Shown here one piece after another: positions 1,046 to 15,144 of a stretch of 64,000 bases of DNA (positions are counted from its first letter, which is position 1; every line of letters begins with the position of its first letter). The translations under genes were made by a program, and so were the position numbers. Under the pieces are notes generated by a model that made no database searches, was not told the origin of the DNA, and saw nothing but the letters and a program-made list of their open reading frames with translations. The DNA comes from Saccharofermentans sp. (lineage in GTDB: Bacteria > Bacillota > Clostridia > Saccharofermentanales > Saccharofermentanaceae), in NCBI GenBank assembly GCA_024683485.1, contig JAIKYD010000003.1, positions 1 through 64,000 on the forward strand, given 5' to 3'.

Positions 1046-1792
1046 TTACATATGCATTCCGCCGTCAACGCTCAATACCTGGCCTGTGATGTAAGAAGCA
1101 TCATCAGAGCAGAGGAAGTTAACTGCGTTAGCGATGTCTTCAGGCTGACCGTATCTCTTGAGAGGGATCATTTCGAAGATCGCATTCTTCTGCTTGTCAG
1201 TGAGAACAGCTGTCATGGGAGTCTCAACATATCCGGGAGCGATAGCATTGAACGTGATGTTTCTTGAAGCGAACTCTCTGGCACAAGACTTTGTAACTCC
1301 AATAACTCCTGCCTTTGAAGCAGAATAGTTGACTTGTCCTGCCTGTCCCTCGATGCCTACGATAGAAGAAATACTTACGACTCTTCCCTCTCTCTTCTTC
1401 ATCATGACCGGTGTGCAGTGCTTGATGAAATTGAAAGTACCCTTAAGGTTTACTGCGATGACCGCATCAAAATTCTCTTCTGTCATCTTGAGGAGCAGAC
1501 TGTCTCTTGTGATGCCTGCGTTGTTTACGAGGATATAAATACCACCGAAATCTTCAGCAATCTGGGCAACAGTCTCGCCTACCTTCTCAAAATCAGCGAC
1601 ATTGCACTGATAAGATTTCGCTTCAACACCCAGCGCCTTGACCTCTTCCTCACAATCGCTGCTCATCTCGAGGGGGCAGGCATCAACGATAGCGATGTTA
1701 TAGCCGCTTTTCGCGAGCTTTACTGCGATCGCTCTTCCGATTCCTCTGGAAGCGCCGGTAACGATAGCTGTTTTACGTGTATTCTCTGACAT
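1046..1792 (-). CDS. fabG: 3-oxoacyl-ACP reductase
   Basis: SDR: TGASRGIGRAIA, NNAG, YSASK; C-terminal ITGQVLSVDGGMHM; located between fabD and fabF. Confidence 0.95.
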   Translation of the reverse strand: MSENTRKTAIVTGASRGIGRAIAVKLAKSGYNIAIVDACPLEMSSDCEEEVKALGVEAKSYQCNVADFEKVGETVAQIAEDFGGIYILVNNAGITRDSLLLKMTEENFDAVIAVNLKGTFNFIKHCTPVMMKKREGRVVSISSIVGIEGQAGQVNYSASKAGVIGVTKSCAREFASRNITFNAIAPGYVETPMTAVLTDKQKNAIFEMIPLKRYGQPEDIANAVNFLCSDDASYITGQVLSVDGGMHM

Positions 1793-1810
1793 GATCTTTA
1801 CCTCCTTGAA

Positions 1811-2728
1811 TCAGCCTAGTTTTTCCAATAATGATTCCACATCTTCAGGAGTGGAAACACCGATTACCTTGATCGAAGGGACCGTCTTTCTTACAAATCC
1901 TGCGATAGTCTTTCCGGGACCGACTTCGATTATCGTATCAACACCCATCTTCTCGAGTTCATAAAGTGTCTGCTCCCACCTTACCGGGCTTGACACCTGT
2001 GCCTGGAGAAGATCCTTGATCTGCGACTTGTCTGTTATCTTCGAAGCATTTGCATTTGCGAAATAAGGGATCTTAAGATCGTTCATGCATACATTCTCAA
2101 GTTCTTTTCCGAGCTCGTCGCCTGCACCCTTAAGAAGCGGTGAATGGAAAGGTCCTGAGACATTAAGCTCAACCACTTTTTTCGCGCCTGCCTCTTCGAG
2201 CTTGGGCATTGCCTCATGTACTGCTTCCTTTTTGCCCGTGATGACGATCTGTCCGGGGCAGTTGAAGTTTGCCGGCCAGCATCCATCGATCTTGTCCGTT
2301 ACGCTTTCGATAGTCTCAGCGTCCAGACCGATAACTGCCGCCATTGTGCCTTCACCTGCAGGAACAGCATTAGACATGAGTCTACCCCTGATCCTTGTAA
2401 GTCTTACAGCATCCTCAAAACCCAGAGCACCTGCAACATAAAGGCTGCAGTATTCTCCGAGCGACAGGCCTGCCGTTACGTCAGGCTTGATGCCTGCTTC
2501 AAGAAGCGCGTCTGTGATGATGCAGCATGCGGTAACAAGTGCGGGCTGCGTGAATTCCGTTATATTAATGTCTTCGTTGGGCTCGAAAAGCAGTTTGTTC
2601 ATATCGATCCCTGAAGCTTCAGAAGCTTTGGTGATCATGTTCTGATAGCGGCTGTCTGCCTTAACAAAGCCCTCCGCCATTCCGACCTGCTGAACTCCCT
2701 GTCCCGGATAACAAAATGCGATACTCAT
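1811..2728 (-). CDS. fabD: malonyl-CoA:ACP transacylase
   Basis: CYPGQGVQQVGM, AGLSLGEYCSL nucleophile elbow, GPFHSPLL. Confidence 0.95.
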   Translation of the reverse strand: MSIAFCYPGQGVQQVGMAEGFVKADSRYQNMITKASEASGIDMNKLLFEPNEDINITEFTQPALVTACCIITDALLEAGIKPDVTAGLSLGEYCSLYVAGALGFEDAVRLTRIRGRLMSNAVPAGEGTMAAVIGLDAETIESVTDKIDGCWPANFNCPGQIVITGKKEAVHEAMPKLEEAGAKKVVELNVSGPFHSPLLKGAGDELGKELENVCMNDLKIPYFANANASKITDKSQIKDLLQAQVSSPVRWEQTLYELEKMGVDTIIEVGPGKTIAGFVRKTVPSIKVIGVSTPEDVESLLEKLG

Positions 2729-3660
2729 TATGCTTCAAGTTTCCTTCCTAAAAGCTGATCTGCCTGTTCAAACATTGATTCAATGATGACTTTGGCAGGT
2801 CTTATCTCATTGACAAGACCTGCGATCTGTCCTGCCATGAATGTTCCTTCCTTTGTGTCGCCTTCAACGACTGCCTTGCGGAGACTTCCGACTGTAAGTC
2901 CTTCCAGTTCCTCGAAAGTAACTCCGTTCTGCTCCATCTCAAGATACTTGTTTGAAAGCGCATTTCTGATCTGCCTTACAGGGTGGCCGTAGGTTCTTCC
3001 GGTAACTCTTGTTGAGTTATCCTTTGCCCTGATGACCATATCCTTATAGTTCTCATGAACATTGACTTCGTCGCATGCACAGAACACGGTTCCGCACTGA
3101 ACGCCTTCAGCACCGAGCATAACAGCTGCCGCAACGCCTCTTCCGTCAGCAATACCGCCTGCAGCAATAACAGGAATGGATACCGCATCAACCACCTGGG
3201 GAACCAGAGTCATTGTCGTTGCCTCACCGATATGTCCGCCGGACTCTGTGCCCTCAGCGATAACAGCGTCAGCGCCGCACTGCTGCATTCTTTTCGCGAG
3301 AGCAACGCCCGCAATGACAGGAATAACGATGATGCCTGCTTCCTTCCACATTGCCATATACTTTTCAGGTGAACCTGCACCCGTTGTAACGACCTTTACC
3401 TTCTCTTCGGCAATTACCTTTGCGATCTCGGGAGCTCTGGGATTCATGAGCATGAGATTTACGCCAAACGGCTTATCTGTTGCTTCACGGCACTTTTTGA
3501 TCTGGTCACGGAGCCAGTTCTCATCCGCTCCGCCGACACCGATAATGCCGAGACCGCCTGCCTCTGATACTGCAGCTGCAATGTGCCAGTCTGCAACCCA
3601 GGCCATTCCGCCCTGGAAGATAGGATATTTAATGCCAATCAGATCTGTGATTCTTGTCAT
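2728..3660 (-). CDS. fabK: enoyl-ACP reductase II (FMN, FabK type)
   Basis: Nitronate monooxygenase/FabK fold: KYPIFQGGMAWVA, AEGTESGGHIGE, IPVIAAGGIADGRG; in fab operon. Confidence 0.92.
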   Translation of the reverse strand: MTRITDLIGIKYPIFQGGMAWVADWHIAAAVSEAGGLGIIGVGGADENWLRDQIKKCREATDKPFGVNLMLMNPRAPEIAKVIAEEKVKVVTTGAGSPEKYMAMWKEAGIIVIPVIAGVALAKRMQQCGADAVIAEGTESGGHIGEATTMTLVPQVVDAVSIPVIAAGGIADGRGVAAAVMLGAEGVQCGTVFCACDEVNVHENYKDMVIRAKDNSTRVTGRTYGHPVRQIRNALSNKYLEMEQNGVTFEELEGLTVGSLRKAVVEGDTKEGTFMAGQIAGLVNEIRPAKVIIESMFEQADQLLGRKLEA

Positions 3661-3692
3661 GTTCCGGAGTCTCCTTTATTTTTTGAAAACGA

Positions 3693-4670
3693 TTAATAAA
3701 CGATGTAGTTAGCGTCCCATGTGAGGCCGGCTCCGAAGCTTGCGAGCACGAGTTTCATGCCCGGCTTGAGCCTGCCGTCCTGCTTCATCTCGGTAAGGAG
3801 CATAGGGATGCTTGCAGAAGATACATTGCCGTACTTGCTGATGTTCATGGGAAATCTTTCGCGCGGGATGCCGAGTTTCTTTGCAGTAGCTTCGATGATC
3901 CTTGCGTTTGCCTGGTGAAGGATGAAATAATCTACGTCATTCTCAAGATCGAAACTGAACTTCTCTGCAAGATCTTTAATGATCTGCGGAACTTCAGTAA
4001 CTGCGAACTTGAATACTTCTCTTCCCTGCATTGCGAAAGAAGTTAATTCCTTAAAGCCTTCCTCTTCCCATCTGTCGGGCTGTCTTGCTGCCTGGCATGT
4101 AAGGCAGTCGCTTCTGTATCCTGAGGATCTCATGATGAACTCATTGCGCTTGATATCTTCAGCCTTAAGAACTGCAGCACCTGCGCCGTCACCGAAAAGG
4201 ATGCATGTTCCTCTGTCCTCAAAGTTTGCGAAATTTGAATTGCACTCAGTACCGATTACAAGAGCAAGCTTGGAGTTTCCTGTCTCAATAAAGCTCTGAA
4301 CGGTGTTGTAAGCTACAATGAATCCGGGGCAAGCGCATACTACGTCGAAGCATCCGCAGTTCTCGGATACACCGAGTTCTCTCTGAACGATGCAAGATAA
4401 AGCAGGTATAACTGTGTCTGAAGTCGTGGATGCCGTAACGATGAAATCAATGTCCTTAGGATCGATCCCCGCATCTTCAACAGCCTTTTTCGCTGCTTCA
4501 ACAGCCATTGTGGACGGTTTCTCAGTTATGTGATCCGCGATATGTCTTTCCTTTATTCCGGTACGCTCGGTAATCCACTCGTCACTCGTATCAAGGAACT
4601 TGGCAAAGTCGTCATTTGTAACGACTTTCTTCGGGACATAAGATCCGAGTCCTATAAATCTGCCTGTCAT
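3693..4670 (-). CDS. fabH: 3-oxoacyl-ACP synthase III
   Basis: GLGSYVPKKVVTNDDFA, DVVCACPGFIVAYNT, FILHQANARI, KYGNVSSASIP. Confidence 0.95.
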   Translation of the reverse strand: MTGRFIGLGSYVPKKVVTNDDFAKFLDTSDEWITERTGIKERHIADHITEKPSTMAVEAAKKAVEDAGIDPKDIDFIVTASTTSDTVIPALSCIVQRELGVSENCGCFDVVCACPGFIVAYNTVQSFIETGNSKLALVIGTECNSNFANFEDRGTCILFGDGAGAAVLKAEDIKRNEFIMRSSGYRSDCLTCQAARQPDRWEEEGFKELTSFAMQGREVFKFAVTEVPQIIKDLAEKFSFDLENDVDYFILHQANARIIEATAKKLGIPRERFPMNISKYGNVSSASIPMLLTEMKQDGRLKPGMKLVLASFGAGLTWDANYIVY

Positions 4671-4737: not shown

Positions 4738-4803
4738 TAGTTTGATTGTCAAAGTATCCCACAACGGTATTGCTTTTGTCAAGCGTTTTGATAATCAAAC
4801 TAT
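4738..4803 (-). promoter_or_regulatory. fabH promoter with two FabT-like palindromic operators
   Basis: TAGTTTGATTGTCAAAGTA (4738-4756) and the inverse-oriented GTTTTGATAATCAAACTA (about 4785-4803), both matching AGTTTGATTRTCAAA; on the minus strand they flank TTGACA (4777-4782)-18 nt-GATACT (4753-4758). Confidence 0.75.
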
Positions 4804-4882: not shown

Positions 4883-5617
4883 TTACTTCTCAAACCGGCT
4901 TGCTGCCCAGCCGCCCTCATTCATATGCGAACTCGTCAACGTCTCAAAGCCCGTAGGTGACAGTATCGGGATCTGAAGTTTCCTGATGGTCTCAGCGCTT
5001 ATCTTATAATCGTTTTCACAGTATTCGGTCCCTGCCCTCTTGACCTCATCAAGATAAACCCGGATCTGCCTTTTTGCCCTTCCGGTCATGAATATCTCAC
5101 CCATGGCGCAGAGGATCGCAGTATATCTGTCCCTGCCTCCGCAGATCAGATCGTACTGCGCAAGAAGAGCCGGGTAAACCGGTTCAAGTTCGACATATCC
5201 ACAGGAACTGATAATTACGAACTTCTTTTCGAAAATCGAATCATCCCTCATCTTGTTAAAGGTCTGCCCGTCATCAGACAATGAACCCATGTAAGGCTCG
5301 GCCAGGGACAGACAGCGGTCTGTCACAGCCTTAAGCTGTGAAGGCATGCCGTAAAAATACAAAGGAAAGCTCTCGATGATGACATCCGACTCCTTGATTG
5401 CGGAAATGATTTCCGCCATATCATCCTTAATTGCACACGTGCCGTCCTTGGATGCCCAGCAGGCAAAACAGCCTCTGCAGGGCTTGATATCCTTTGCATA
5501 AATATCTATCTTCTTCACATCCGTGCCTTCGGGAAAACCGGACACGAACGCATTCGTTACATTGAGCGTATTGCTTCTTTCGAGTTTTGGACTGCCGTTA
5601 AGGATAAGTACTTTCAT
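4883..5617 (-). CDS. NADPH-dependent FMN reductase / flavodoxin-fold protein with Cys motif
   Basis: MKVLILNGSPKLERSNT..., CRGCFACW; flavodoxin-like fold typical of iron-sulfur flavoprotein/WrbA-like reductases. Confidence 0.8.
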   Translation of the reverse strand: MKVLILNGSPKLERSNTLNVTNAFVSGFPEGTDVKKIDIYAKDIKPCRGCFACWASKDGTCAIKDDMAEIISAIKESDVIIESFPLYFYGMPSQLKAVTDRCLSLAEPYMGSLSDDGQTFNKMRDDSIFEKKFVIISSCGYVELEPVYPALLAQYDLICGGRDRYTAILCAMGEIFMTGRAKRQIRVYLDEVKRAGTEYCENDYKISAETIRKLQIPILSPTGFETLTSSHMNEGGWAASRFEK

Positions 5618-5651
5618 CTGATCATTACCATGCCCCGAAAATTTACCCGCA

Positions 5652-6386
5652 TCAGAGGCTCAGACCTCCGTCGAGCACGATCACCTGACCGGTCATATAA
5701 GCAAAAGCTCCCGTAAGGAGGCTCGCAACACAATCCGCAACATCCTCAGCAGTGCCGAAACGCTTCATGGGAACAGCATCAAGATACTTCTCAGCCAGAT
5801 CCCCCGGAATGGACTTGATCATGTCCGTGCCGATAAAGCCGGGAGCTACCGCATTGACCTGGATCCCGTAAGGCGCAAGTTCTTTGGCCATTGTCTGCGT
5901 CAGTGAGTTGACTGCACCCTTTGTCGCACTGTAAACGCACTGGCCGGGAACCGCCAGGACGGAACTTACAGAAGAAACGTTGATTATCTTTCCGCTCTTC
6001 TGTGAGCACATCTTAAGACTAGCAGCCTGTGCGCAGTTTATATATCCCTTGATATTGATATCAAGACTTCTGTCCAGTGATTCCTGCCTGATCATGAGAA
6101 GATATGCATCATCAACAACACCGGCATTATTGATCAGGACATCAATAGTCTCAAAGTTCTTCTTGATATCCTTGAACATAGCTTTGACCTGTGCGATATC
6201 TGACGTATCCGCTTTATATATCTCGCAGCGGACACCTTTGGCTGTTATCTCCTCCTGAGCAGCTTTGGCAGCTTCGTCATTGCTCGCATAATTAAGCGCT
6301 ATGTCATAACCCTCCGAGGCAAGCTTAAGCGATATCGCTTTGCCTATTCCTCTTGAACCGCCTGTGACAACTGCCGTTTTGCCCAT
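5652..6386 (-). CDS. FabG-like SDR ketoreductase (PKS-like cluster)
   Basis: TGGSRGIGKAIS, NNAG, SSVSSVLAVPGQCVYSATK, VIVLDGG. Confidence 0.88.
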   Translation of the reverse strand: MGKTAVVTGGSRGIGKAISLKLASEGYDIALNYASNDEAAKAAQEEITAKGVRCEIYKADTSDIAQVKAMFKDIKKNFETIDVLINNAGVVDDAYLLMIRQESLDRSLDINIKGYINCAQAASLKMCSQKSGKIINVSSVSSVLAVPGQCVYSATKGAVNSLTQTMAKELAPYGIQVNAVAPGFIGTDMIKSIPGDLAEKYLDAVPMKRFGTAEDVADCVASLLTGAFAYMTGQVIVLDGGLSL

Positions 6387-6405
6387 AATGTATTCCTTTC
6401 AGAAA

Positions 6406-8667
6406 TCACGCTTTGGTAAGCAATACTGCCGAGTAAAGCGCACTGGTTCCGAACGAGACAGCTATTCCCGTCTCTAATCTGCCTTCATAAATATCCTTGG
6501 CAAGCATCGCAAACTGCATCGAAGAAGATGCCGCTCTCGCTTCACCGTAATCCTTCTTTACAAGTTTGACTTCGATACCGTCTCCGAAGATCTTCTTATA
6601 GACTTCCATCTCGAATTCATCGACTTTCCTGATACCGTTTCCGAATCCATAGATACAGGACACATCCGAAGCCTTCATCCCTGCTTCGTCCAGAACGTTC
6701 TCAATAGCCTTTACGAGCGCCTTCTCTGAAAGCCTCAGATTGTCAGTCCTGTCACCCGAAGTATCTCTGGTTGAAGAGAAGCCTGCGATCTTGGCATAAC
6801 GCTTTGCTCCTCTTTCAGCGGCGCTTGAATCCTTCTCGATAACGCAGGTTACCGAGCCTTCACCCAAAGTCATGCCGCCTTCACCTGTAAAGCCCAGATC
6901 GAGGTATATCTCATCATCAATATCAGTGCATTCGTCTGTTCCCGATGCGAGCATAATGTTCTCATAACCGAACAATATCGCGCCTGCTGCAGCGCAGACA
7001 CTCTGGAGACCTGACTGGAATCCGTTTGCGATAGTAACGTTATAGCCCTTGATGCCGGTGGCAATCGAGAGATATCCGCCTGCTGCATTATAAACGGTGT
7101 TCGGGAAAGCAAAAGCACTTCCCTTATCGATGCCGTCCCTTATGATGCCCTTCTGGAAATTGGCGATCTCCGTCATCGGGCCGTCATTGGTTCCTATGCA
7201 GATTCCGATTATTCCCTCATTCTCGTCAGTAACGGTAATGCCGGCATCTTCCAAAGCCTTGATCCCGCTCAGAAGCTGGAGTTGTGATAATCTGTCGAGT
7301 TTTCTTAAGAACGCGGACTTGACGCCGTAAGCCTTGAAAATATCCGTATCAAGGTTTGCAATATAGTCACCGGTATCAGCATCAAATTCGCCGCTTACGA
7401 TCCCTATGCCTGTAACGTAAAGACTTTGCTTGGGGCATAAGAGATTAAGCACATTCGGATCTTTTGCGAAAACTATGCTCGCATTGTTGCCTCCGAAGGC
7501 AAAAGAATTCGACATCGCATACTTAATGTCCTTTTGACAGGGCTTATTGGCAATAAAGTTGATGTCACCTGACTTCTCTTCCAATACTTTAAGGTCTTCT
7601 TCTGAATATCCCGTCGTCGGAGGAAGCTTGCCTTCAGTAAGGGCTTTGACGGTGATGACCGCCTCAATAGCTCCTGCAGCTCCGAGGCAGTGTCCTGTCA
7701 TGGACTTCGTGGAACTTACATAAAGATCCTTGTTATCCTCGAAAACCGTTTTCAAAGAAAGGAATTCCGACTCATCATTTTTTGCCGTACCGGTACCGTG
7801 AGCATTTACGTAATCGATATCAGTAAACTTGAGACCGGAGTTCCTGACCGCGCGTGTGATAACGCTCATCTGGCCTTCACCGTCAGGTCTCGGGGCGGTT
7901 ATATGGTAAGCGTCCGAACTGACGCCGGAACCTAAGACATCACAGTATATTTTCGCGCCACGCTTAACAGCATGCTCGTAACTCTCAACGACAAGCACAC
8001 CGGCACCTTCGCCCAATGTGATCCCGTCACTGTGGTTGAAGGGGGAACAGTCGGAAGGGGCCAATGCCCTTAATGCGTGGAACCCTGAATATGCAAGAGA
8101 TGAGAAAGAATCGCACCCGCCTGCAAGGAAGATCTCACCCTTGCCGCCTCTTATGAGGTCTATGGCAAGAGCAATGCTCAGTGTACCTGCAGCACAGGCA
8201 TTTACTATATTGGCGGTTATTCCGCCGGCATTATAATAATCGGCGACATTGCCGGCAATAACAGAGGCAGGCATTGATTTAAGGTCGTCATATTCGCCCT
8301 TCTCGCCTTTTGCTTTCTGGCCGTAATATTTCTCAACACAGGCAGCTCCTGCGATACAGCTTCCGAGCAGTACACCTATCTCAGAAGCATCCTCGGAATT
8401 CATATCGATCCCGGCATCTTTTATTGCCTCTCCGGCCGCCTTTATACCCAGAGCGGTAGTCCTGTCGTATTTGCCGCCTGCCATTTCCATATCTGAAAGC
8501 TTTACTTCAGCTCCCTTATGCGAATAACAGTCGGAAGTATCAAAACTTGCCGCATCAGCAATACCGGATCTGCCTGTCAGCGCAGCTTCAAAGCATTCAT
8601 CGACATTATCACCGATAGCGCAGACAAGTCCTAATCCGGTGATAACGCAGCGCTTCTCGTTCAGCAT
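6406..8667 (-). CDS. fused ketosynthase (KS-alpha) and catalytically inactive KS (KS-beta/CLF-like)
   Basis: N-terminal KS has VNACAAGTLS, NAHGTGTAKND and SMTGHCLGAAGAIE (Cys-His-His). C-terminal half (from SLYVTGIGIV) has IANGFQSGLQS, YGFGNGIRKVDE and KKDYGEARAAS in the equivalent positions, so the triad is lost. Confidence 0.85.
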   Translation of the reverse strand: MLNEKRCVITGLGLVCAIGDNVDECFEAALTGRSGIADAASFDTSDCYSHKGAEVKLSDMEMAGGKYDRTTALGIKAAGEAIKDAGIDMNSEDASEIGVLLGSCIAGAACVEKYYGQKAKGEKGEYDDLKSMPASVIAGNVADYYNAGGITANIVNACAAGTLSIALAIDLIRGGKGEIFLAGGCDSFSSLAYSGFHALRALAPSDCSPFNHSDGITLGEGAGVLVVESYEHAVKRGAKIYCDVLGSGVSSDAYHITAPRPDGEGQMSVITRAVRNSGLKFTDIDYVNAHGTGTAKNDESEFLSLKTVFEDNKDLYVSSTKSMTGHCLGAAGAIEAVITVKALTEGKLPPTTGYSEEDLKVLEEKSGDINFIANKPCQKDIKYAMSNSFAFGGNNASIVFAKDPNVLNLLCPKQSLYVTGIGIVSGEFDADTGDYIANLDTDIFKAYGVKSAFLRKLDRLSQLQLLSGIKALEDAGITVTDENEGIIGICIGTNDGPMTEIANFQKGIIRDGIDKGSAFAFPNTVYNAAGGYLSIATGIKGYNVTIANGFQSGLQSVCAAAGAILFGYENIMLASGTDECTDIDDEIYLDLGFTGEGGMTLGEGSVTCVIEKDSSAAERGAKRYAKIAGFSSTRDTSGDRTDNLRLSEKALVKAIENVLDEAGMKASDVSCIYGFGNGIRKVDEFEMEVYKKIFGDGIEVKLVKKDYGEARAASSSMQFAMLAKDIYEGRLETGIAVSFGTSALYSAVLLTKA

Positions 8668-8669
8668 CT

Positions 8670-8927
8670 TCAGTCCTCTTTATGTGCTTCAACGAATGCG
8701 GCAAGTGTCTCGATCGAACGGAAATCCTCTTTTGTGGCACCTGAACCTGAGAGATCTACTCCGAAGAGATTCTCGATTCCGACAATGATCTCAATGGAAT
8801 CGATGGAATCAAGTCCTATATCCTCACCGAAAAGCTCGGAATCATACTCGAGCTCGTCCTCAGGGATCCTGAGTCTTTCAACAAGCATCCCCTTGATTTT
8901 CTCGGCTATCTCATTATTCATCTCCAT
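8670..8927 (-). CDS. acyl carrier protein
   Basis: ...DIGLDSIDSIEIIVGIENLFGVDL phosphopantetheine site; GAGGAGG Shine-Dalgarno precedes ATG at about 8927, so the ORF-track start at 8939 is probably 4 codons early. Confidence 0.9.
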   Translation of the reverse strand: MEMNNEIAEKIKGMLVERLRIPEDELEYDSELFGEDIGLDSIDSIEIIVGIENLFGVDLSGSGATKEDFRSIETLAAFVEAHKED

Positions 8928-8972
8928 AATCCTCCTCAATATATTAAAAAGAAATTTTATCCGCTAATAACC

Positions 8973-9605
8973 TTACACTAAGTTGCCCTGTTTTTCCAAC
9001 GAAACGGAATAAAAGTGCAAAATCACGTTAAAGCGTCTCAACTCTGTTATCGACATCCTGCATTTATATCCCCATGAAGATACCCATAGCGTGTCCCCGT
9101 CAATATCTGTGATCGTAACCCAGTGGAATCCTATCATCGTCTTATGTCCGTCAGGCAATTCCACAGCCACGTTGTTGAACGGCGCAGTAACGAGCATTAC
9201 CAGCGGATCCCCGCCCTTCAGATAATCAGGTATCTTCTTATACCACTTGAACCTGAAAGGCTTGACCTTTACCGAAAGGCCTTCCTTGACTCCGAGCTTT
9301 TTCACGCCCTTCCTGAACCTCGATGCACTTACACCAAAGCTCCCGAGAAACTCTTTGCCAAACAGTTTTCTCGGTTCCATGTTCTTGCCGACAGTAATAG
9401 GTCTTATGTAGTCCTTGGCATCAAAGAACCTCTCGAAATACTCTTCCCTCGGCATCCTCTCCTCGCCTTTCAGGCGCATGATCGCATCAAGACCTGCGAT
9501 TATCCCGCAGCCGCTGTTAAGCAGCATTTTGTCAGGAAGCCACATCTGGCTTCCTCCGAAAGATTCAAGTCCGTATTTATCGATTATCTTGGGCGGCACA
9601 CTCAT
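8973..9605 (-). CDS. papain/C39-like cysteine-peptidase-fold protein
   Basis: MLLNSGCGIIAGLDAIM (Cys), TMIGFHWVTITDID (His) and LWVSSWGYK resemble C39/papain-like motifs; family assignment is by motif only. Confidence 0.5.
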   Translation of the reverse strand: MSVPPKIIDKYGLESFGGSQMWLPDKMLLNSGCGIIAGLDAIMRLKGEERMPREEYFERFFDAKDYIRPITVGKNMEPRKLFGKEFLGSFGVSASRFRKGVKKLGVKEGLSVKVKPFRFKWYKKIPDYLKGGDPLVMLVTAPFNNVAVELPDGHKTMIGFHWVTITDIDGDTLWVSSWGYKCRMSITELRRFNVILHFYSVSLEKQGNLV

Positions 9606-10444
9606 CTCAAAAGCACCTCACACCATGCTCCCTCAACAGGCATTCCCGGAAGCTCGACAGCTCCCGCATCCGTAAGTCTCTTCCTGCTCTCGTAAACTTC
9701 ACCTTTTTGCGGAACCGGTGCCATAAAGCACTGGATGCCTTTGCCGGTCCATTCTTTTACAAGAGGCTCAAGAGCAACAGGGGCCGTTCCCGAGTGATTA
9801 CAGCAGATAAGGACTCTGTCAAACCCTTTCTCAGGAATGACAGGATCAGGCATTGCGGGAATAACAAGTATCTTTGGCAATCTTTCCTTCGAGAAAAAGT
9901 CCGAATGATCCTTTATCTCCAGCGAGCTGCAGTCACGGTATTCCGTGTAGATCCCGTTAATGTCCGGAGATACTATGTGACTTGCCCTGTAAAGCTTCGG
10001 TATCCTGTCAAAGTTTCTGAACGCAACACCGCTCTTACCCTTCTCGAGGCAATTAACAGCAAACAAAAGGTTGTATCCTGCCTCCTCCGGGTCAACATCA
10101 GGTGATCTTAACGAACCCGTTATTACAAAAGGGATTATAAGCGGTGATAACACCCTGTATGCGAGCTGTGCGAAAAAAGCACATGTATCAGTTCCGTGCG
10201 TAATAAGTATCCCGTCATATCTGGATCCGGATGCCTCATCAATGATCTGCTTCAGCGCCTTGCGGTAATCCTCAGCAGTAGCATTCTCCGAAGAATACCT
10301 GTCAAACTCCGGAAAGACATACTCATTCTCAGATGAGTATTCGAGCAAAAAATCCTGAACAAAAGAGGGGGCTCCAAGCTTGACCGTTCCGTCAGACAAG
10401 GACGATGAGATCGTTCCCCCGAGCATGGCTACTAATATCCGCAT
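9602..10444 (-). CDS. type I asparaginase-family protein
   Basis: MRILVAMLGGTISS, GILITHGTDTCAFFA, VITGSLRSPDVDPEEAGYNL. Confidence 0.85.
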   Translation of the reverse strand: MRILVAMLGGTISSSLSDGTVKLGAPSFVQDFLLEYSSENEYVFPEFDRYSSENATAEDYRKALKQIIDEASGSRYDGILITHGTDTCAFFAQLAYRVLSPLIIPFVITGSLRSPDVDPEEAGYNLLFAVNCLEKGKSGVAFRNFDRIPKLYRASHIVSPDINGIYTEYRDCSSLEIKDHSDFFSKERLPKILVIPAMPDPVIPEKGFDRVLICCNHSGTAPVALEPLVKEWTGKGIQCFMAPVPQKGEVYESRKRLTDAGAVELPGMPVEGAWCEVLLR

Positions 10445-10511
10445 ATCCCTTTCCTTCTAAAGCCCATTTAGAGTAAAATTACTCATAATATTATAATTCA
10501 CGAGGTTGCTT

Positions 10512-11273
10512 ATGAGAATAGCGAGCTGGAACGTAAACGGAATAAGGGCAGTTGCAAACAAGGGTTTCAGGGAAAGCCTCGGAAAGATCGATGCAGATAT
10601 AATAGGCATCCAGGAGATCAAGGCTCTTCCGGAACAGCTGGGTCCGGAGATAACAGATATTCCGGGATATAAAAGCTGGTTTTATTCCGCAGAGCGCAAG
10701 GGATATTCAGGCACCGCTCTGTATTCAAGGATCGAACCTGCCAATGTGGAATTTGGGTTTGGCGTTGATGAGTTCGACCATGAAGGCAGAGTCATAAAAG
10801 CGGATTTCGGGGACTTTGTCCTTTTCAACATATACTTCCCCAACGGTGGCCGTGGCGATGACTATGTCAAGTTCAAGCTAAGGTTCTACGACTGTTTCCT
10901 GGATCAGGTTGACAGCATCAAGGCATCCGGCAAAGAGGTCATCTGCTGCGGAGATGTCAACACCGCACATAAGGAGATCGACCTGTCCAACCCCAAGGCA
11001 AACTCCAAGATCTCAGGATTCCTTCCCGAGGAACGTGCATATATGGACAAGTTCATCGAGAGAGGCCTGACTGACACATTCAGAATGCTCCATCCCGATG
11101 ATAAGGAATGCTATACCTGGTGGTCATATAAGACCGCTGCAAGAGAGCGGAACGTCGGCTGGAGAATAGACTATTTCTTCACTACAGACGGTTTGAATTC
11201 ACGGGTAAAGGAATCAAATATGATGACTGACATCATGGGTTCGGATCACTGCCCCATTTATCTGGATATCTGA
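10512..11273 (+). CDS. xthA: exodeoxyribonuclease III
   Basis: MRIASWNVNGIRA, IIGIQEIKA, WRIDYFF, GSDHCPIYLDI; ATG at 10512 with GAGG upstream. Confidence 0.93.
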   Translation: MRIASWNVNGIRAVANKGFRESLGKIDADIIGIQEIKALPEQLGPEITDIPGYKSWFYSAERKGYSGTALYSRIEPANVEFGFGVDEFDHEGRVIKADFGDFVLFNIYFPNGGRGDDYVKFKLRFYDCFLDQVDSIKASGKEVICCGDVNTAHKEIDLSNPKANSKISGFLPEERAYMDKFIERGLTDTFRMLHPDDKECYTWWSYKTAARERNVGWRIDYFFTTDGLNSRVKESNMMTDIMGSDHCPIYLDI

Positions 11274-11280
11274 CAACTGA

Positions 11281-14200
11281 TCAGTCCTGCGAGTTGTTTT
11301 CGCGCTTGTCCATCGTATTCTCAGTCATAATACTGCCGTTGATGTCAAGCTTGGTCAGAGATCCGGTGACCTTGAAATCCATCTCTTCCACATATCGCGG
11401 AACATCGAGGTTGGTAAAGATACTGCCTTCCGTTTTGGAATTGGATATCCTGATCCTGACTTTCTTGTCCATACCCCTGTAGATGCCGGCCTGCTTGCCG
11501 CCAAGATCGACTCTTAACGATACATGATCGATGGTAATGTTCGTAGGTGCCGCGGTGCCGGAACCAAATGCCGTGATATCGTGTGCCTTGGAGGCCATAT
11601 TAATGGTGGCACTGTATATGCTTATCTGCAGTTTCTCACTGTGCTTTGAACCAACCATGATAATATCATTTCCGTTAAAATCCATCTTCATGGAAGAGTG
11701 TTCGATCATCATGTCACATCTTCCCATAAGAGAACCGATTCCGACTGCATTAAGCGCGACACTTGTCATCTCAAGATAACAGTTGCTTATTATCGGATCG
11801 ATATCGCCTGAGATGGATCCTATTCCGACAGAGGTCTGACCCATTAGGTTGATCTTGTACATTCCTCTTCTGACGGTCAGATGTCCGCCAAGACCGCTGC
11901 CGATCGCAACGCTCTTATTGGCATTTACAGATATCTCTATTCTTCCGTCCTGATCGAAAACAAGATCTCCGTGATATGAATCCATATCATTTCCGATACC
12001 GAATGTTTCAACTCCGGTAGTATTTATCGAGAGATTTCCGGTACCTTCAAATGTAAGCATTGCCTTGGGAGATACCTTTATTCCTCCGCCGCTCAAATAG
12101 TTATCACCGGTAAGGGAGAGAACGACTTCGCAGTCATCACCTATCGTAATCGCCGCATCATGCATCCTGCCCGTAAAAGCGCAGTTCTCGATAGCTATCT
12201 TTCCTTTATATCCGTTCTCGATCTCAATATTAATAGCAGCATCATCTCTGGGCACGCCCAGTATATGCAGATCCCTGTGGGTAACATGACCCGATGTAAC
12301 ATGGATAGTGTTATAGCCTTCTTTAACAAGAAGCGGTAAGGAGATCCTTGCTTCTCTTCCGGCAACATAATCCCTTCTCGTACGGTTCTTAGCCTTGCCA
12401 GAACTGTACTTGACGATCTCTTCTTTGACCGGGGAAGAGATTTCTTTAATGATATTCTCGGAAGGGCGGGCCGTGTAATAACCCTGGATAAGATCGACAC
12501 CGAGATTGATAACTGTCTCGATCTCCTCTGTTGTCTCTATTCCTTCGGCAAGCGCAAGGATATTGTTATCATGCGAGAATTCGATGATATCCTTTACAAA
12601 ATGCTGTTTCTGCGGTGAATCCTGGATATTGGCAAGAAGGGCCCTGTCGATCTTAACATAATTCGGCATATATCTGAGAAGATTGCTGACATTGGAATAA
12701 CCGGTTCCATAGTCATCTACCGCTGTCTCAAAGCCAAAACTCTGATACTCCTTCTTCATGTCAGCCAATTCCATGTCGTCCATCTCGGATTGCTCCGTAA
12801 ACTCAACAACAAGCCTGCCTGCCAGATCTTTTGACAACTCATGGATATTCTCCATATCCTCTTTCTTGAGGCGCTGGCCCGGAATCGAGTTAATGAATAT
12901 CTTGGCATCCGGATTAAACTTGTCAGCATGCGATTTGACATAACTAAGGACATTGTGGAAAGTCGCATATTCGATATCGTAAAGCCTGTCAAAGAAACCT
13001 GCATACTTGATAACGAGCAACGGCTGAACATAAGGAACCGTATCGGCTCTCATCAAAGCCTCGTACGCATATATCTCACCGGTACGGGCATCAACGATCG
13101 GCTGGAAGTGATAATTGATCCTGTTCTTATCGAGAATATCGTTAATGATCCTTGCTTCCTCGATCTGAGAGGCATCAAAGCCATCTGCATTCATCTTCTG
13201 GAGGTTTATCTTCTGCCCGTTCTTTCTGGACAGCGCAACACTTACGACACTCTCGTAATCAGCTCTGGTCCTGGGCATTCCTTCAGCAGTTCCATAATAA
13301 ACCTCAAGTTTTCTCCTGCCTTCCCCGAGTGATGAATTATAAGCATCTATTTTTTTATAGAGTTCCTTCACCCGGTCTTCCATGAGTAACAACGCGTCTT
13401 CCGTTTCCGGCATAACTTCAAGTGCAACCATTTCGCCATTACCCATGCAGTAAACACGGCCTTGCGGGAATACCTCCTCCAGGTAATTGCCCATGCTTAC
13501 GATCGCATCATCGCCGGCGGTTCTTCCGTTATCATTGTTGATCTTTGCAAGATTCTTTATATCGATCGCCAAAGCTCCGATCTTCTCGCCCTCTCTGAGC
13601 GGGTTCATGATGATGATGTCTTCAGTCTGTTTTAAGAAACCGTTATAGTTGTAAATACCGGTAAGCGGATCTCTTACAAGACTTGCCTCAAGTTTCTTAT
13701 TTATGGCAACAAGCTCATCATATCTCCTGAAGTTCTCAAGTCCTCGCATTATGCTGTGGAGCCAGAACCTGTAAGACCTCTTATATGACCTGGGTTCCGT
13801 AAAGGACAGGACAGCATAACCGAAAGTCGATTCCTCGAAATGCAGCGGTGTAAAGAAGAATGCCTCAGGCTTCATCCTGTCGCTTTCGAGTCTCGGAATG
13901 AGGACATCCCTGTCAAAATATACACCATCGCTGACACGGTCCAGACCCATTTCTTCCGGACGGCAGGCAATAACATGCATCATCTTTCTCGTGAAGAATT
14001 TGTCGGTACATGACAGACCTTCGGGCGAGAGCCTGGAGTCTTCTATAGCACCGGCCAGAGCTTTGGCTTTCTCCTGCCATTTGTCATTGAGACATATACT
14101 GAAACTCTCAAAATCACGGATCTGGAATATATATGAGAAAGTGGTCTTCATAAGACCGTCGAAATCATTCTGGATAACCAGATCCTCATCAAGATGGTTG

Positions 14201-15144
14201 AAAGACGAGAAAACGCTGTTATGCGAAGTATCTGTATCCCAAACCTTGCGGAGCTTGGTCTCATACTGGACTTTATCCTCGCTGCATCCGCAGGTCCTTC
14301 CATAGAAGAACTCCCCGTTATCCGTGAAAGGCTCTGTCTCACGCCCTTCCATATAATTGAACAGCTTGTCGGCAGTATAACTTCCCATGGATTTGGCCGG
14401 TAACTTCAGTGAAGTCACAGGCTTCGGGGAATATCTTCCCTCCTCGTTAGAGTCATAACCCACAACAGCAATATCTTCAGGGATCCTGATTCCGCCTGCC
14501 TCAAGAGCTTTTGCAAGTCCGATGGCCATACAGTCATTGGCGCATGCAATTGCCTGTGGAAGGTTTCCGCCTTTCTTTACAAGCCGGTCACCCAGACTCT
14601 CGCCACTTGTATACCAGAAGTCACCATAAAAAACTCTGTCCCTTCCAACCGTCAGACCGTGCTCGGTCATGGCATCCATAAAAGCCTGAAGCCTCTGCTT
14701 CGAATAATGATGCCAGGCCTTACCTGTGAGAAATGCGATATCAGTATATCCGTGATCTTCAATAAGATGGTTGATAAGGATCTTTATAGCTTCATAGTGG
14801 TTCGGGAAGACCGACGGGAAATATTTGCTTTCCTTGTCAATAAAGACAACTGGACATTTGCAGCGGTTATGGATTATCTCTTCCAGGCTGTCAGAAAGAC
14901 CGGGAGACTGGAGTGTATCCGCCATTACCGCGACGGCATCAAACTGCTCAAACGGAATAAGCGAGAATATCGAAGTCTCGCCTACTTCCCTTCCGAGATT
15001 ATTCTGATATTTGAGATAACTGCTGAACACAAGGACATCGCTGTTATTTTCAAAAGCCTTGCCGATAAAGCCCTCGATAAACTGAGCCTGATAATATTCA
15101 TCAGCCTGAGCTACAAGTAAAGCTATTCTTTTGCGTTCAGCCAT
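11281..15144 (-). CDS. LacI-type periplasmic-binding-like sensor - degenerate GGDEF - EAL - beta-helix-like C-terminal domain
   Basis: N-terminus RIALLVAQADEYYQAQFIEGF...VAVVGYDSNEEGRYSPKPVTSLKLP (Peripla_BP_3-like); GGDEF site reads GNGEM; EAL domain has YEALMRAD, EFTEQSE, AVDDYGTGYSN, LAEGIET, IQGYY; C-terminal ~330 aa is repetitive Gly/Ser/Asn/Ile beta-rich sequence. Confidence 0.82.
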   Translation of the reverse strand: MAERKRIALLVAQADEYYQAQFIEGFIGKAFENNSDVLVFSSYLKYQNNLGREVGETSIFSLIPFEQFDAVAVMADTLQSPGLSDSLEEIIHNRCKCPVVFIDKESKYFPSVFPNHYEAIKILINHLIEDHGYTDIAFLTGKAWHHYSKQRLQAFMDAMTEHGLTVGRDRVFYGDFWYTSGESLGDRLVKKGGNLPQAIACANDCMAIGLAKALEAGGIRIPEDIAVVGYDSNEEGRYSPKPVTSLKLPAKSMGSYTADKLFNYMEGRETEPFTDNGEFFYGRTCGCSEDKVQYETKLRKVWDTDTSHNSVFSSFNHLDEDLVIQNDFDGLMKTTFSYIFQIRDFESFSICLNDKWQEKAKALAGAIEDSRLSPEGLSCTDKFFTRKMMHVIACRPEEMGLDRVSDGVYFDRDVLIPRLESDRMKPEAFFFTPLHFEESTFGYAVLSFTEPRSYKRSYRFWLHSIMRGLENFRRYDELVAINKKLEASLVRDPLTGIYNYNGFLKQTEDIIIMNPLREGEKIGALAIDIKNLAKINNDNGRTAGDDAIVSMGNYLEEVFPQGRVYCMGNGEMVALEVMPETEDALLLMEDRVKELYKKIDAYNSSLGEGRRKLEVYYGTAEGMPRTRADYESVVSVALSRKNGQKINLQKMNADGFDASQIEEARIINDILDKNRINYHFQPIVDARTGEIYAYEALMRADTVPYVQPLLVIKYAGFFDRLYDIEYATFHNVLSYVKSHADKFNPDAKIFINSIPGQRLKKEDMENIHELSKDLAGRLVVEFTEQSEMDDMELADMKKEYQSFGFETAVDDYGTGYSNVSNLLRYMPNYVKIDRALLANIQDSPQKQHFVKDIIEFSHDNNILALAEGIETTEEIETVINLGVDLIQGYYTARPSENIIKEISSPVKEEIVKYSSGKAKNRTRRDYVAGREARISLPLLVKEGYNTIHVTSGHVTHRDLHILGVPRDDAAINIEIENGYKGKIAIENCAFTGRMHDAAITIGDDCEVVLSLTGDNYLSGGGIKVSPKAMLTFEGTGNLSINTTGVETFGIGNDMDSYHGDLVFDQDGRIEISVNANKSVAIGSGLGGHLTVRRGMYKINLMGQTSVGIGSISGDIDPIISNCYLEMTSVALNAVGIGSLMGRCDMMIEHSSMKMDFNGNDIIMVGSKHSEKLQISIYSATINMASKAHDITAFGSGTAAPTNITIDHVSLRVDLGGKQAGIYRGMDKKVRIRISNSKTEGSIFTNLDVPRYVEEMDFKVTGSLTKLDINGSIMTENTMDKRENNSQD

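Follow-up and report, generated by a model that had tools for sequence, protein, structure and literature searches.

What a single polypeptide with two ketosynthase domains, one with a full set of catalytic residues and one with none, is doing beside a housekeeping fatty acid operon is the question raised by six genes at positions 4883 to 10444 of a stretch from Saccharofermentans sp. (contig JAIKYD010000003.1, positions 1 to 64,000; this whole 64,000-nucleotide stretch is called the window below). Our answer, to which we give a probability of roughly 0.6, is that these genes encode a compact, free-standing highly reducing type II polyketide synthase (PKS) or a specialised acyl chain synthase. 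At its core would stand a ketosynthase (KS) and a chain-length factor (CLF) joined as a single-chain heterodimer, an assignment that is well supported by sequence comparison and structure modelling. A preliminary description, made from the DNA letters alone, had claimed six tightly packed genes on one strand, and all of the open reading frames (ORFs) were confirmed on the minus strand, with overlapping or very short junctions between them:

6406..8667 (-): single-chain KS-CLF fusion, 753 amino acids (aa); Pfam ketoacyl-synt twice, alignment, tree, fold match
7447..8667 (-): N half of the fusion, predicted active KS with Cys158-His290-His326; invariant residues, alignment, PDB 9s5h_B at 6e-82
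6409..7434 (-): C half of the fusion, predicted catalytically dead CLF-like KS with F550-Q551, GFGNG and GEARAA; alignments, tree
8670..8927 (-): dedicated acyl carrier protein (ACP), about 85 aa, DSIDS motif; Pfam PP-binding 3.5e-10
5652..6386 (-): FabG/FlxB-like ketoreductase (KR), 244 aa, YxxxK retained; Pfam adh_short/KR
4883..5617 (-): flavodoxin-fold protein, iron-sulfur-flavoprotein-like, CX2CX2CX7C; Pfam Flavodoxin_2/FMN_red
8973..9605 (-): papain/C39-fold protein, 210 aa; invariant residues, AlphaFold2 model, Foldseek against PDB
9602..10444 (-): asparaginase-like protein, 280 aa; Pfam Asparaginase 3.7e-17, PDB 1wls alignment, clade alignment

The two halves of the fusion were aligned with FabF, FabB, aromatic KS-alpha, aromatic and highly reducing CLF, aryl polyene and NodE sequences. 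The motifs quoted in the preliminary description proved exact: the N half (NACAAG, HGTGT, TGHCLGAAG) keeps Cys-His-His, and the C half (NGFQSG, YGFGNG, YGEARAA) has GFQSG and neither His. Among 33 Saccharofermentans fusions, the Cys, HGTGT and GH motifs of the N half are retained, and the C half has F, Y, N or S at the Cys site followed by an invariant Gln at +1. The pattern holds in Bacillota and Streptomyces alike: in 15 fusions or split pairs, every N half has Cys-His-His and no C half has any of the three residues. In the gut clostridial C halves, Cys is replaced by F, S, A, V or I with Gln at +1, HGTGT by a GF(G/A/K)(N/D)G-type sequence, and GHxLGA by GEARAA or GESRAA. The Gln thus follows the lost Cys, whereas the aligned aromatic CLFs have Gln at the Cys position itself; the Priestia, Bacillus and Streptomyces C halves are without it. 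In the IQ-TREE phylogeny, a 97/89 branch parts the C halves and one highly reducing CLF from the N halves and all active KSs. The gut clostridial sequences form a 100/100 clade in the N-half and the C-half parts alike, and the matching internal order suggests that the halves have co-evolved. An active FabF copy in the C half was rejected, given the loss of all catalytic residues and the placement in the tree. The best match of the KS half among solved structures is PDB 9s5h_B; its chains B and C are KS proteins that differ from each other (413 and 412 aa) and may themselves form a KS-CLF heterodimer.

Whether the pair could form within one chain was addressed with an AlphaFold2 model, built from 21 sequences of one genus, from which no interface detail is claimed. 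Its best PDB match is the KS-CLF didomain of PfaC (6riw), covering both halves with a TMq of 0.70, compared with about 0.41 for single FabF chains. This match across both domains of a low-confidence model supports an intramolecular KS:CLF pair, although it does not prove one.

The fusion is not an accident of one assembly. A search of 148 related genomes (86 others of the genus and 62 of the family or order outside it) found full-length fusions in 34 of the 86, at 59-90% identity; one more of the 86 (G050) has a split copy, and the 62 sampled outside the genus yielded no fusion. A broader scan of GTDB with a C-half profile, taking one genome per species, returned 275 stretches, of which 80 were retained for counts; both halves lie in one ORF at 78 of these 80 loci, which come from independent assemblies. 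The two exceptions, L051 (the same as G050) and L107, look like frameshifts rather than natural splits; L051 is interrupted within the KS, near residues 348-355. Because the full-length ORF recurs so consistently, a chance or assembly artefact, which the preliminary description had named among the findings that would overturn it, was ruled out. Two narrower distributions were also rejected: fusions in other gut Clostridia, including Lachnospira eligens, exclude a restriction to this genus, and fusions in Priestia, Bacillus and Streptomyces exclude a restriction to Clostridia.

Comparison of gene neighbourhoods revealed which parts of the cluster are shared. An ACP and a KR accompany the fusion at 79 of the 80 loci and the flavoprotein at 74, most absences being due to short or truncated contigs. 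The record titles place the clade of the window among Saccharofermentans-like rumen bacteria, and the six-gene set is fixed in one such genus: the asparaginase-like and papain-fold genes occur at 34/34 Saccharofermentans-type loci and nowhere else in the 80-locus set, and the gene order is retained in the 16 loci seen with flanks, as a rule between xth and fabH. Between the window and locus L039, the ratio of nonsynonymous to synonymous substitution rates (dN/dS) is 0.04 for the KS half, 0.055 for the CLF half and 0.03-0.10 for the other five genes; dS is saturated, and these low values indicate purifying selection on all six.

Outside the genus (Oscillospiraceae, L. eligens, Ruminococcus), the conserved core consists of the ACP, the fusion, the KR and the Fe-S-type flavoprotein. 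The six-gene set expected from the window therefore holds within the genus only; elsewhere the two upstream genes are absent, and other genes are present instead. Neighbour clustering, which began at L069 and in which a few dehydratase (DH) and flavoprotein members derive from genus loci, gave the acyltransferase PlsC at 35 loci (HX4D in 33), a FabZ-type DH at 32, an Sfp-type phosphopantetheinyl transferase (PPTase) at 21 and a flavodoxin-fold protein at 37. These relatives, with their PlsC, FabZ-type DH and PPTase genes, represent a more complete, lipid-linked highly reducing system, of which the window cluster appears to be a pared-down or re-tooled version. For example, the 627-kb plasmid of L. 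eligens ATCC 27750 carries an ACP, a 797-aa fusion, a KR, FabZ, FabD, AccD, a flavodoxin and PlsX, and its fusion (WP_041688922.1) falls in the clade of the window with 100/100 support for each half. More distant fusions were found on Priestia megaterium pBM500 and Bacillus tropicus pBEMB20-1, in Streptomyces sp. NBC_00335 and in two more genomes of the class. The L. eligens, Priestia, Bacillus and Streptomyces fusions (776-809 aa) are clustered with an ACP, a KR and a FabZ-type DH, together with a GcvT-like gene and a major facilitator superfamily transporter in Priestia, and carry the sole annotation 'beta-ketoacyl synthase family protein'. The fused KS-CLF in a type II setting thus seems to be a recurrent and poorly described arrangement: the covalent fusion of the preliminary description is real, but it is not unprecedented, given PfaC and the fusions of Priestia, Bacillus and Streptomyces.

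Some related loci show further variation. Two larger clostridial clusters (L144 and L145, genomes G342 and G382) resemble the pBM500 set and hold an 812-aa KS-KS fusion with GcvT-like, ABC transporter, flavoprotein, glycosyltransferase-like, thioesterase-like, DH, ACP, KR, FabD and PPTase-like genes. Ruminococcus bromii YE282 (G526, the L069 genome) has two different fusion genes, on C36 and C60, in frames of 790 and 776 aa, whose C halves score 444 and 229 bits against the profile. At nine loci (including L097, L101, L103, L105, L106 and L110), a patatin-like phospholipase gene (PF01734 with DUF6363) follows the flavoprotein gene, a hint of a further lipid link.

The window lies in a genome that is 82% complete, so the argument from absence rests on near-complete relatives. 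PlsC, DH and PPTase genes lie outside the six-gene cluster. The only FabA/FabZ-domain gene of the genome is on contig C113, exactly one such gene is present in each fusion-bearing genome of the genus, and these genomes mostly have a single PPTase-superfamily gene, of AcpS size. The claim that the cluster has neither malonyltransferase nor dehydratase was thus borne out, with a housekeeping FabZ as the genome's sole dehydratase. Because the genus has no dedicated DH or PPTase, dehydration and phosphopantetheinylation must, on this gene content, presumably be borrowed from fatty acid synthesis (FAS), or dehydration would be skipped to give 3-hydroxyacyl chains. In the window's genome (G000), contig C122 (L143:2193-8999) carries a nonribosomal peptide synthetase-like ORF of at least 2046 aa beside the only PPTase-superfamily match, a 221-aa protein of Sfp size.

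The cluster adjoins the fab operon, and the following features mark the two apart:

10490..10518 (-): promoter-like site of the cluster, with a genus-conserved TATAAT, divergent from xth
4741..4799: two FabT-type palindromes, TTTGATTGTCAAA and TTTGATAATCAAA (+ strand), upstream of fabH, a boundary mark outside the cluster
1046..4670 (-): neighbouring housekeeping fabH-fabK-fabD-fabG, the likely malonyl-ACP source

The gap between the cluster and xth contains a conserved CCTCGTGAATTATAAT element ahead of the cluster. In the eight loci checked, FabT-type palindromes (TTTGA-N3-TCAAA), at which we presume the regulator FabT to act, were found upstream of fabH in all eight and before the cluster in none. 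With its own conserved -10 element, and with FabT boxes solely before fabH, the cluster is probably a separate transcription unit, in agreement with its earlier description as distinct from the housekeeping operon. In addition, fabF runs off the end of the window's contig (C49), and the other fabF piece lies with fabZ at the end of C113 (L142:6164-8001), so that the two contigs probably join within fabF. Beside fabZ on C113 are genes for PqqD-like (84 aa), nucleotidyltransferase-like and signal-peptidase-like proteins and an ABC transporter, which look like a small peptide-modification cluster. On the other side, at 11281-15144 (-), a 1287-aa protein with a LacI-type sensor, GGDEF- and EAL-like regions and a C-terminal repeat (judged by eye) is conserved next to xth in other members of the genus.

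The accessory proteins give some indication of chemistry. The ACP has a DSI/DSL motif in 33/33 relatives; although its ORF extends to 8939, the ATG at 8927 behind AGGAGG is favoured over the TTG at 8939 and is probably the true start. The flavoprotein motif CX2CX2CX4-9C, with a spacing of 7 in the window, is present in 63/63 copies (25/25 from Saccharofermentans, 37/37 of Oscillospiraceae type, and L. eligens); we take this motif to be typical of iron-sulfur flavoproteins. The papain-fold protein has no Pfam match even at E 1, and its confident AlphaFold2 model (pLDDT 89.7) has as Foldseek neighbours in the PDB C39-like peptidases, staphopains, PCAT peptidase domains and CtaG of Ruminiclostridium cellulolyticum, which takes part in the assembly of closthioamide, another clostridial carrier-protein pathway. 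Cys33, His161 and SSWG are invariant among 32 homologues; papain has NSWG at this site. We propose that this protein may act as an acyl transfer or release enzyme. The asparaginase-like protein, aligned with PDB 1wls, retains Thr11 and Thr85-Asp86, and has His156 at the position of the usual catalytic Lys, a position occupied by His, Phe, Leu or similar residues throughout the clade of the window; the Lys is kept in the second clade of the genus.

These observations can be assembled into a candidate pathway. The neighbouring housekeeping FabD would make malonyl-ACP on the cluster's own ACP, on which the KS would condense malonyl units iteratively, with the CLF half shaping the tunnel and setting chain length. 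The KR would reduce each keto group, and dehydration, if any, would fall to the genome's sole FabZ. The Fe-S-type flavoprotein may perform a late redox step, and the papain-fold protein may remove the chain from the ACP as an acyltransferase or thioesterase. The rumen genus may have dropped the DH, PPTase and PlsC genes and altered the release step. As the relatives carry DH and PlsC or PlsX, the most likely ancestral product of the family is a glycerolipid bearing a polyene or some other polyunsaturated acyl chain. For the window, a polyene or 3-hydroxyacyl chain is likely and an aromatic polyketide unlikely. The compact polyketide- or polyene-like assembly line of the preliminary description therefore stands as regards an active KS with a dead CLF and a highly reducing type in the relatives, and is less certain as regards a polyene in the window. 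More tentative, and somewhat doubtful as a whole, is an extended scenario in which the single-chain KS-CLF family of gut Clostridia makes PlsC/PlsX-linked polyene lipids, in human gut L. eligens as in the rumen, and the Saccharofermentans branch gave up DH, PPTase and acyltransferase, came to release its chains with a papain-fold acyl or amide transferase and so arrived at a different product with an unchanged core.

Three other explanations have to be weighed. The fusion might extend housekeeping acyl-ACPs in a specialised branch of FAS, yielding an unusual membrane fatty acid (3-hydroxy, unsaturated or very long) that the flavoprotein and a release enzyme trim or transfer. The position beside the fab operon in genus members seen with flanks, the PlsC of the relatives, the PlsX, AccD and FabD of L. 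eligens, which are typical of membrane lipid supply, and the housekeeping FabZ as the sole dehydratase on hand are all in keeping with such a branch. We consider it unlikely, though of some weight, because the cluster has a separate promoter without FabT boxes, its own ACP and KR, and a KS-CLF pair instead of a homodimeric KS, and because the fusion occurs in 35 of 86 genus relatives, a patchiness not expected of an essential lipid pathway. The Gln at the nucleophile elbow, shared by all 33 Saccharofermentans fusions and by the aligned gut clostridial relatives, raises the different idea of a C half that primes in cis, decarboxylating malonyl-ACP to acetyl starters as KSQ domains do. KSQ decarboxylases retain the catalytic His and the HGTGT and GH motifs; here, both His and both motifs are lost, the Gln sits at +1 rather than at the Cys position, and the Priestia, Bacillus and Streptomyces halves are without it, which makes this role improbable. 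A clostrubin- or actinorhodin-like aromatic pathway, for which the KS, CLF, ACP and KR would form the minimal set, is still harder to credit and in our view very improbable, since neither the cluster nor the conserved neighbours of its relatives yielded an aromatase or cyclase, the relatives have a DH, and the C halves lie apart from aromatic CLFs in the tree.

The proposal of a highly reducing type II PKS or specialised acyl chain synthase also faces evidence that weighs against it. Two aromatic CLFs lie on the KS side of the 97/89 branch as drawn with midpoint rooting, and several long branches were flagged, which makes any deep link between the C half and aromatic CLFs uncertain; the CLF-like second half of the preliminary description stands in being apart from FabF and FabB, and its grouping with aromatic CLFs is not clear. 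The model of the fusion has a pLDDT of 66 and a pTM of 0.76. The papain-fold protein resembles CtaG weakly (TMq 0.41, 7% identity), and the roles given to it, to the asparaginase-like protein and to the flavoprotein are inferred. Lastly, the genus has no dedicated DH or PPTase, which makes the case for a polyene weaker there than for the relatives.

Measured against known systems, the window shares with type II PKSs a KS with Cys-His-His, a Cys-less partner, a discrete ACP and a CLF apart from FabF and FabB, and departs from them in having KS and CLF in one ORF rather than as separate polypeptides, as at 78/80 loci. Of the hallmarks of highly reducing type II PKSs, it has the dedicated KR; the dedicated dehydratase is missing from the window and present in the relatives. 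The ishigamide system Iga10/Iga11/Iga12 (PDB 6kxd) is similar in its active KS with inactive CLF, discrete ACP and KR, and also in the FabZ-type DH of the window's relatives, and both chains A and B of 6kxd were found by sequence; unlike it, the window has KS and CLF in one polypeptide and no dedicated DH in the cluster, and its KS half is closer in sequence to FabF than to 6kxd_A. PfaC, the top fold match, has the same covalent arrangement, and covalent KS-CLF as such is already known from it. However, PfaC belongs to a type I multi-domain polyunsaturated fatty acid synthase, whereas the window encodes discrete proteins with about 18% identity and no cis DH; of the tandem ACPs and DH domains of that format, none was found in the 753-aa protein, which holds just two KS-type domains. 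Aryl polyene clusters, represented by one on a Klebsiella plasmid (L126), have ACP, KS, CLF, KR, lysophospholipid acyltransferase and PPTase in common with the relatives of the window, which differ in the fused KS-CLF, the single ACP and the absence of LolA, an MMPL transporter and a thioesterase. From the aryl polyene combination of KS, CLF, KR, DH, ACPs and acyltransferase, the window lacks DH and acyltransferase, and enzymes for aryl starters (ammonia lyase, AMP ligase) were not found among the six genes or the conserved neighbours of the relatives. Within the family, the L. eligens cluster adds FabD, AccD and PlsX relative to the window.

Polyene chemistry has been described in anaerobic cellulolytic Clostridia, as the celluxanthene/flavoaffinin (yellow affinity substance) pathway of Clostridium thermocellum, an iterative type I PKS whose cex cluster is reported to be absent from Ruminococcus flavefaciens (PMC12144888, PMC11839114). 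Its architecture differs from that of the window cluster, and a homologue of this pathway was ruled out on account of its type I nature. In the open full-text literature, we found no description of stand-alone KS-CLF fusions in Firmicutes or gut Clostridia, which does not prove that none exists; a catalogue of type II PKS clusters has, in its main text, a single mention of Firmicutes and none of fusions. Together with the dehydratase and lipid-attaching enzymes that the related clusters add, the fusion suggests that gut Clostridia harbour a family of polyene-type acyl chain pathways that has yet to be described.

Strict anaerobes of the gut have so far yielded few polyketide-type pathways, and the fusion core is widely conserved across gut Clostridia. 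Its carriers include culturable species and named strains (L. eligens ATCC 27750, Ruminococcus bromii YE282 and Lachnoclostridium sp. MSJ-17), and lipid-attaching genes lie alongside. With pairing and stoichiometry fixed, a one-chain KS-CLF is a neat system in which to study the control of chain length by the CLF. If the extended scenario of PlsC/PlsX-linked polyene lipids is true, this family of gut Clostridia would be a candidate source of pigments, such as that of Ruminococcus flavefaciens.

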